Assembly: GCA_018058095.1 (NCBI GenBank)
Contig: JAGPCO010000026.1
Location: 1-64,000, forward strand
Length of the DNA: 64,000 bases
Reading direction: 5' to 3'
Source: Kofleriaceae bacterium
Lineage (GTDB): Bacteria; Myxococcota_A; Polyangia; Haliangiales; Haliangiaceae
Every line of letters starts with the position of its first letter. Position 1 is the stretch's first letter. Below are positions 23,236 through 34,833 of the stretch, piece by piece. A program made the position numbers and the translations under genes. Below the pieces are notes generated by a model. It searched no databases, was not told where the DNA came from, and was given only the letters and a program-made list of their open reading frames with translations.

Positions 23236-24357
23236 ATGACGCGCCCTCGCTCCACCGTTGGCACCGCGCTGTGTGCGGTCCTGGCCGCCGCGGCCGTGAC
23301 CGCCTGCAAGCCCGACCAGAAGAAGATCGATCAGCAGATCGCGACCAAGGTCGGCGAGGCCACCAGCCAGATCGAGCAGAAGCTCGAGCAGATGGTCCAG
23401 GACAAGGTCGAGGCCCGCCTCAACCAGGTCATGGGCGGCGCGGTCGACCAGAAGATCGCCCAGCAGGTCGGCCAGAAGATCGAGGGCAGCATGCTCGATC
23501 AGAAGGTCTCGACCGCGCTCGACAGCAACATCGCCCAGCGCATCGACAAGCTGGTCGACGCCAAGCTCGGCGCCGGCATGAGCGCGCGCCTGGCCAAGCT
23601 GGAGGAGACGGTCGGCACGCGCGGCGAGGCGCTGGCCTTCCTCGACAAGGTGTACCAGCAGCAGAAGGCCCAGGCCGAGGCCGAGGAGGCGCGCGAGCCG
23701 GCGCCCGACGCGGTGTTCGCGGTCAACATCGACGGCAACCAGATCGACGGCCCGACCAGCGGCGCCTACGTGACAATCATCGAGGCGTGGGACTTCGCTT
23801 GACCCTACTGCCAGAGGGTCGGTCAGACCCTCAAGGAGCTGGTCAAGGAGTACGGCGGCAAGGTGCGCGTCGCGTACAAGAACATGGTCGTGCACCCCGA
23901 CACCGCGATGACCGGCCACAAGGCCGCGTGCGCGGCCGGGCGGCAGGGCAAGTTCATGGAGTTCAAGACGCTCTTCTGGGAGGAGGGCTTCGGCGCCTAC
24001 GCGTCGAGCCGCGATCCGTCGAAGATGAACGAGGCGGCGGTGACGGCCATGGCGCAGAAGCTCGGCCTCGACGTGGCCAAGTTCAGCGCCGACCTCAAGG
24101 GGCCTGACTGTGCCAAGCGCATCGAGGACGACATGGCCGAGCTCGGCAAGTTCGGCGTGCAGGCCACCCCGAGCTTCTTCATCAACGGCACGATGATCCC
24201 CGGCGCGCTGCCGCCCGAGCAGTTCAAGGCGATCATCGACGAGAAGCTGAAGATCGCCCAGGCCTCGGGAGTCCCCGCCGCCAAGTACTACCAGGCGGAG
24301 ATCATGGCCAAGGGCGAGAAGAAGTTCCGCTCGAAGAAGGCGCCCAAGCCGAAGTGA
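23236..24357 (+). CDS. Selenocysteine-containing DsbA-like thioredoxin-fold lipoprotein (in-frame TGA read as Sec189)
   Basis: One reading frame runs from the ATG to 24357 (373 residues), interrupted only by TGA at 23800-23802. The first part has a lipoprotein signal (VTACKP, Cys 24), a coiled-coil-like segment (about 30-150) and then VTIIEAWDFA directly before the TGA. After it comes PYCQRV and a complete DsbA-type domain ending with the cis-Pro loop QATPSFFING (P312). DsbA relatives have DFxCPYC here, so the TGA replaces the first, nucleophilic Cys of CPYC, giving Sec-Pro-Tyr-Cys. A 7-bp hairpin at 23814-23832 has the features of a bacterial SECIS. Simple termination would leave a lipoprotein with no catalytic domain. 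The role would be disulfide or peroxide chemistry in the envelope. The genes selA, selB, selC and selD must be elsewhere. Confidence 0.88.
23814..23832 (+). promoter_or_regulatory. Bacterial SECIS element downstream of the Sec TGA
   Basis: The stem gagggtc / gaccctc pairs perfectly over 7 bp with a GGTCA loop. Eighteen bases separate the TGA from the loop GGTC. As I recall the E. coli fdhF SECIS, it has the same GGUC in its apical loop at the same 18-base distance, and the known bacterial rule puts the loop G about 16-37 bases after the UGA. A shifted pairing (gaccct 23801-23806 with agggtc 23815-23820) could compete. Confidence 0.85.
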
Positions 24358-24393
24358 ACGACGGCGAGCCGGCCGCCGGCTCGCCAGCTCCGG

Positions 24394-31732: not shown

Positions 31733-33658
<1,926 letters not shown>

Positions 33659-33687
33659 CCCCGCCCGCCCCCACCCAGCCCCGCCCG

Positions 33688-34833
33688 ATGAACTACTACT
33701 GCCCCGATTGCGGATCGCGCGCCGACGTCGGCGGCGGCTGTCGCAAGGACAACCAGCGCATGGTGCCGCGCCAGCCCGGGGCGCTGCTCGGCGAGCAGAT
33801 CGGCCGCTACACGCTGGTGGCCCGGCTCGGCTCGGGTGGCATGGGCGAGGTGTACAAGGCGGTCCACATCGACATCGGCTCCAAGGCGGCGTTCAAGGTC
33901 CTGCACGCGACCGGCACGCCCGACGACGCCCAGAGCGCGCAGCGCCTCCTGCTCGAGGCCCAGCTCATCAACCGCATCGATCACGACGGCGTGGTCAAGG
34001 TGACCGACGCCGGCTACCTGGCCGGCGGCCGGGCCTACCTGGTGATGGAGTACCTCGACGGCGAGTCGCTCGGCGACGTGGTCGCCCGTGGCCAGCGCCT
34101 GCCGCTCGGCACCGCCTGTCAGGTGGTCATCGACGTGCTCGACGTGCTGGCCGCGGCCCACGCCCAGGACGTGATCCACCGCGACCTCAAGCCGCCCAAC
34201 GTCTTCCTGACCCGGACCGGGCGCACCGTCATCCTCGACTTCGGCGTGGCCAAGCTGCTCGACCCGGCCTCGGGCGTGCGCCTGACCGCGACCGGGGCCA
34301 TCGTCGGCACCCCGCACTACATGGCGCCCGAGCAGATCCGGTCGTCGGTCATCGACGCCCGCGCCGACCTGTACTCGACCGGCGTCATGCTGTTCGAGCT
34401 GGTCACCGGCCGCCGCCCGTACGAGGCCGAGGCCCCGTTCGACGTGCTGGCCATGCACCTCGAGCACCCCATCCCGAGCGCGCGCGCCATCCTGCCGGAG
34501 GTGCCGGTCGCGGTCGACGCGGTGATCGAGACGGCGATGGCCAAGGACCCCGGGCGGCGGTTCGGCAGCGCCCAGGCCATGAAGACCGCGCTGTCGCAGG
34601 CCATCCTCGGCCTGCCAACCGCGGCGTTCACGCCGATCGACCTGTCGCAGGTGCGGGGCGCGCCGCGGATGACCGCGGCCCGCTCGGCCGTGCGGGCCGG
34701 GGCGTCGATGGCCGGGCCCCAGGCCGCGCCGCCGACCCACGCCAGCCCGGCCCCGCCGTCGCGCTGGCCGATCGTGCTGGTCGCGCTCATCACCCTGGCC
34801 GCGGGGATCGGCATCGGCCTGGTCCTGCGCTGA
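33688..34833 (+). CDS. Membrane-anchored Ser/Thr protein kinase with N-terminal zinc ribbon
   Basis: A 381-aa Hanks-type kinase. The N-terminus has CPDCG and a later Cys (GGGC), resembling a small Zn ribbon; kinase domain about 40-300: GSGGMGEVYKA (P-loop), AFKVL (Lys), IHRDLKPPN (catalytic loop), LDFGVAKL (DFG) and GTPHYMAPEQ. A Thr/Pro/Ala linker leads to one transmembrane helix at the C-terminus (about 358-380). It likely senses at the membrane. It follows a UbiB-type gene and may be co-transcribed. Confidence 0.9.
   Translation: MNYYCPDCGSRADVGGGCRKDNQRMVPRQPGALLGEQIGRYTLVARLGSGGMGEVYKAVHIDIGSKAAFKVLHATGTPDDAQSAQRLLLEAQLINRIDHDGVVKVTDAGYLAGGRAYLVMEYLDGESLGDVVARGQRLPLGTACQVVIDVLDVLAAAHAQDVIHRDLKPPNVFLTRTGRTVILDFGVAKLLDPASGVRLTATGAIVGTPHYMAPEQIRSSVIDARADLYSTGVMLFELVTGRRPYEAEAPFDVLAMHLEHPIPSARAILPEVPVAVDAVIETAMAKDPGRRFGSAQAMKTALSQAILGLPTAAFTPIDLSQVRGAPRMTAARSAVRAGASMAGPQAAPPTHASPAPPSRWPIVLVALITLAAGIGIGLVLR

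Follow-up and report, generated by a model that had tools for sequence, protein, structure and literature searches.

Does the in-frame TGA in a gene at 23236-24357 (+ strand) of the window, as we call the whole 64,000-nucleotide stretch of DNA analysed here, from an uncultured myxobacterium (Kofleriaceae), encode selenocysteine (Sec), and, if so, what kind of protein does the gene make? The region is a single frame of 373 codons, whose sole interruption is the TGA at 23800-23802 (codon 189); the terminal TGA (24355-24357) is an ordinary stop, as homologues end nearby, several of them with TAA or TAG. The translation around the internal TGA reads ...IIEAWDFA-U-PYC-QRVGQTL, which puts this codon where a DsbA domain has its nucleophile. 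Domain models cover both sides of it: PF13462 (Thioredoxin_4) matched residues 177-336 (4e-22; 79.6 bits against a Pfam cut-off of 23.2) and PF01323 (DSBA) residues 180-334 (3.2e-17; 63.4 bits against a cut-off of 25.6). GC3 was 0.96 upstream and 0.97 downstream of the TGA. The original prediction, made from the letters of the DNA, that the frame is open apart from this codon, that the codon stands where DsbA proteins have their nucleophilic Cys, and that normal GC-rich codon usage continues beyond it, was thus borne out. The window DNA is, however, very GC-rich, so that an open frame alone means little, and the case is carried by homology and conservation.

Protein-based searches returned a first set of 25 sites with TGA, and many sites with Cys, at the identical column, the pattern that the original prediction had named as support. 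In Myxococcota, 51 homologous DsbA sites have TGA at the column of Sec189, nearly all of them with a hairpin in the same register. The nearest named records are Kofleriaceae, Myxococcales and 'Deltaproteobacteria' MAGs. In six of the six pairs compared, dN was lower than dS both before and after the TGA.

The candidate bacterial SECIS element of the window gene is the hairpin GAGGGTC-GGTCA-GACCCTC at 23814-23832 (+). It has 7 bp, begins 11 nt past the TGA and presents its GGTCA loop (23821-23825) 18 nt past the TGA, exactly where the original prediction had put it. In the SECIS of E. coli fdhF, the apical loop is likewise GGUC and stands at about 18 nt from the UGA; the two elements are alike in loop and spacing, but differ in host gene and stem sequence. 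Counting both strands, the window has 1,114 TGA triplets, and for only one of them do all seven stem positions form Watson-Crick pairs in this register while G is among the first two bases of the loop. When the organism's own genome was scanned with the SECIS model, only this site was a confident match, and the weaker matches that we inspected lacked a credible Sec frame. A SECIS search with RF00031 gave no match, but neither did its controls, and this result was set aside.

Conservation of the hairpin was analysed on a smaller alignment of 24 distinct sequences and on an enlarged set of 48 distinct sites, from whose covariation count the third-domain sites of two three-domain relatives (L223 and L224, described below), with hairpins in a shifted register, were excluded. 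In the enlarged set, 95.5% of cells were paired, and compensatory double changes were seen at 4 of the 7 pairs (10 cells; GC to CG, GC to AU twice, UA to CG). Both pairing and covariation exceeded all 500 shuffles, and every slid register scored lower. The hairpin lies at an equal distance in every one of the first 25 TGA genes. In contrast, Cys homologues fold more weakly and have no hairpin at the corresponding place; the conservation in TGA homologues to which the original prediction had looked for support is, therefore, confined to them. Codon choice follows the same division. The sole AGG/AGA codon of the window gene is the one inside the hairpin, and Arg two codons past the motif is encoded by AGG in 18 of the 18 Sec genes having Arg there, versus 3 of 141 Cys genes (Fisher 5e-21, on sequences that are not independent), a preference that protein coding alone does not demand. 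Matches to the SECIS model were found in 36 of 379 Myxococcota genomes, some of them being Cys genes. RNA model R1 derives from TGA members, so that its TGA matches are not independent evidence for the TGA; the independent support is the conservation of the column in the protein-based searches.

The window's genome (97% complete, 227 contigs) contains selA, selB, selD and a tRNA-Sec with a UCA anticodon, that is, all four components (selC included) whose presence the original prediction had made a check. Its selB has a C-terminal extension. The selD gene (L048:1531) has its own in-frame TGA, within GGGUAAK, and is thus itself a selenoprotein gene. This TGA is followed by the hairpin CCGGCTC-GGT-GAGCTGG, whose GGT loop also begins 18 nt past the TGA, so that two genes of one genome have identical geometry. 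Among relatives, the presence of selA was linked to TGA copies in the expected direction, if weakly (17/18 versus 24/38, p 0.02), because selA serves other genes too. In G002, a relative with TGA copies whose genome is only 73% complete, no selA was seen.

Could the TGA, nevertheless, simply end the protein? The product would then be a 188-residue helical lipoprotein, and the remainder of the frame a decaying DsbA. TGA is a stop in table 11, and the terminal TGA of this very gene is used as one; yet TGA recurs at 51 homologous sites, the hairpin accompanies it at nearly all of these and shows covariation, selection after the TGA is like that before it, and the genome has the full Sec machinery. 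These observations make an ordinary stop very improbable, and we rejected it on conservation. The existence of close Cys homologues might instead suggest a sequencing or assembly error that turned TGC or TGT into TGA. However, in many separately assembled genomes the same codon is TGA and is accompanied by the hairpin, a feature that the Cys genes lack. This makes an error vanishingly unlikely, and it was rejected on the same grounds. We conclude that Sec is almost certainly incorporated at UGA 23800-23802. The conservation of the hairpin and the complete machinery suggest how: SelB, on the hairpin at 23814-23832, would direct tRNA-Sec to this UGA.

The protein begins with a predicted signal peptide and lipobox (23236-23307; LAAAAVTAC-K), in which Cys24 (codon 23305-23307) is the residue to be lipidated and Lys stands at +2. 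The 24 aligned Sec homologues all keep Cys24, and each of them is predicted to be a lipoprotein. Then follows a long alpha-helical stalk, residues 28-153 (23317-23694), modelled by AlphaFold2 as helices 28-68, 70-80 and 89-153. There are 188 residues before the active site in the window copy versus about 90-155 in relatives; the lipoprotein anchor is shared throughout the group, and what sets the window copy apart is only its long helical stalk. The original prediction had described the N-terminus as a coiled-coil lipoprotein. The lipobox and a long predicted helix were both found, but not the coiled coil, as no clear pattern of heptad periodicity could be seen in the stalk. The DsbA/thioredoxin-fold catalytic domain, residues 177-336 (23764-24243), was modelled with a pLDDT of about 97. 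It contains U189 of the U-P-Y-C active site, the resolving cysteine C192 (23809-23811) and, facing the active site, T311 P312 (24166-24171), which from knowledge of the fold we take to be the Thr-cisPro motif; C192 and T311-P312 are invariant among aligned Sec members. The best PDB matches of the catalytic domain are DsbA, TsdA, ScsC and BdbD. Judged from its sequence, the gene product is very probably a DsbA-type oxidoreductase that contains Sec and is anchored to the membrane; this judgement leaves aside whether it acts as an isomerase or an oxidase. In Myxococcus xanthus, Lys is found at +2 in 8 of 12 inner-membrane lipoproteins (PMC3222651). The +2 residue is Lys in the window copy and Glu or Gln in most relatives, and from this Lys we would guess that the window copy may be retained at the inner membrane.

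Once exported and, as the lipobox suggests, lipidated on Cys24, the protein would have its DsbA-fold domain held away from the membrane by the helical stalk, which may also oligomerise this domain. Sec189-Pro-Tyr-Cys192 would then exchange selenol and thiol with the disulfides of envelope proteins: Sec would attack the disulfide, Cys192 would resolve the mixed selenenylsulfide, and the enzyme would be recycled. The direction of this chemistry is a closer call. DsbD is present in the genome (L239; DsbD_TM 3.3e-51, plus a WCTPC domain), VKOR was sought in the same genome and not found, and the nearest stalked folds are ScsC-type oligomeric isomerases. For these reasons we favour a membrane-tethered disulfide isomerase or reductase recycled by DsbD over a disulfide-forming oxidase, and give it roughly an even chance of being right. 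ScsC and similar stalked enzymes of the DsbA type are trimers that act as isomerases (PMC5524982, PMC8900818). The UPYC motif and the fold are of the DsbA type, and the best matches, in sequence as in fold, include members of the DsbA family; this would suit an oxidase that works as classical DsbA does and is re-oxidised by a partner of the DsbB type. Such an oxidase is possible but doubtful, given the DsbD and VKOR results and the reductive or peroxidatic chemistry that selenols usually favour. It is also conceivable, though improbable, that the main role is binding of metal (Cu, Hg) or metal stress, as in ScsC, with the selenolate as a ligand. The nearest stalked folds are indeed those of ScsC copper-sensitivity proteins (PMC5524982, PMC8900818); however, neither scs operon nor metal genes were recognised beside the window gene, and no neighbours conserved between the window copy and its relatives were found. 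The genes flanking the window gene that matched Pfam are DAGK, alpha/beta hydrolase and DUF192. One clade of relatives adjoins POR/TPP-enzyme, DUF3108 and polyphosphate kinase genes, an arrangement not shared by the window copy. Just past the terminal TGA lies a strong inverted repeat, GGCGAGCCGG-CCG-CCGGCTCGCC (24363-24385), which is probably a terminator stem and whose loop does not begin with G. Further along the window, at 32038-34830 (+), is a Ser/Thr protein kinase gene, a relative of which is found just upstream of a Cys-DsbA gene in L097.

The Sargasso Sea (PMC1088965) and later sets (PMC2398784) yielded UxxC selenoproteins of DsbA-like and DsbG-like types, and a DsbA-like selenoprotein was found in Anaeromyxobacter dehalogenans (PMC1794560). 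The DsbA-like UxxC proteins have thus been known since 2005, and the Anaeromyxobacter case since 2006. The window gene has the features by which they are recognised, namely the Pfam domain, UGA at the Cys column, a G in the bSECIS loop and sel genes in the genome. Like the genes of the known proteins (PF01323; form 1 in PMC13188914), it encodes Sec where CxxC has its first Cys, and a SECIS closely follows the UGA; its product differs from them in that it is predicted to be a lipoprotein, has a helical stalk at the N-terminus and belongs to a Myxococcota clade that alternates between Sec and Cys. A closer comparison is with NCBIfam NF041057, the Rcas_1661 family thioredoxin-like (seleno)lipoprotein, listed as DsbG-like in PMC13188914. 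It alone among NCBIfam models matched all of the 24 Sec members with an E of at most 1e-10, and both it and the window protein combine a lipobox with a UxxC thioredoxin-like domain. The window protein scored 82.9 bits, far below the model's cut-off of 190 (the best single-domain Sec member reached 102.3), and aligned only from profile position 50, the N-terminal stalk lying outside the match. ScsC of Proteus mirabilis and Caulobacter, a soluble periplasmic protein and a trimeric isomerase, likewise has a DsbA-type domain behind an N-terminal helical segment, but with Cys instead of Sec and a shorter trimerisation stalk. The suggestion in the original prediction that the arrangement might be undescribed in this group was overstated, since Sec-containing DsbA-like proteins and the family NF041057 were already known. 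What does seem undescribed is a Myxococcota subfamily with frequent exchange of Sec and Cys, the long stalk of the window copy, and triple Sec-DsbA relatives.

In the tree, Sec and Cys members are interleaved and at least 7-8 Sec/Cys changes are needed, indicating that the exchange was repeated. Sec and Cys lipoprotein copies also adjoin within one locus in L092 (2718, 3840, 4786), L093, L094, L095 and L098, which form a natural Sec/Cys duplication series. A subgroup (L106, L101 and L104) has a U-G-Y-C active site rather than U-P-x-C, and a C-terminal EHGHWH tail.

Some relatives have several DsbA domains. Two proteins of genome G252, encoded at L223:741-2840 (-) and L224:3829-5799 (-), each have three tandem DsbA domains, all UPxC; each gene has three in-frame TGA codons, every one followed by its own hairpin, and the N-termini resemble a membrane anchor, not a lipobox. 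The three-domain DsbA protein of G214 (L225:3873-5882, +) has Sec in its first two domains and Cys in the third. Pfam found three domains each in L223, L224 and L225. In other multi-domain DsbA proteins, L228 and L229 (G169) and L212 (G338), the first domain has Sec, whereas the later ones have Cys. In a 2026 review (PMC13188914), DsbA-like form 1 is listed with a single Sec, and two or three Sec are ascribed to only a small subset of prokaryotic families; with three, the distant relatives L223 and L224 stand apart from the known form. It is likely that Myxococcota have an expanded membrane-anchored Sec-DsbA system, in which stalked lipoproteins, some in tandem with Cys copies, are accompanied, in other families, by two- and three-domain polypeptides whose domains each have a Sec and a SECIS element of their own (L223, L224, L225).

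If this is true, it would include, as far as we could find, the first multi-Sec DsbA-type envelope enzyme, and the triple-Sec relatives would be a test of the efficiency with which several UGA codons in a single message are read in bacteria. Automatic annotation would split or truncate the window gene. With these findings, the known range of disulfide chemistry based on Sec would come to include the envelope of a large myxobacterial group, in which Sec and Cys copies of one enzyme exist side by side, sometimes as neighbours in a locus. Such natural Sec/Cys pairs may allow one to ask what is gained from selenium in an oxidising compartment, and how SECIS elements come and go, as both the hairpin and its codon choice are missing where the codon is Cys.
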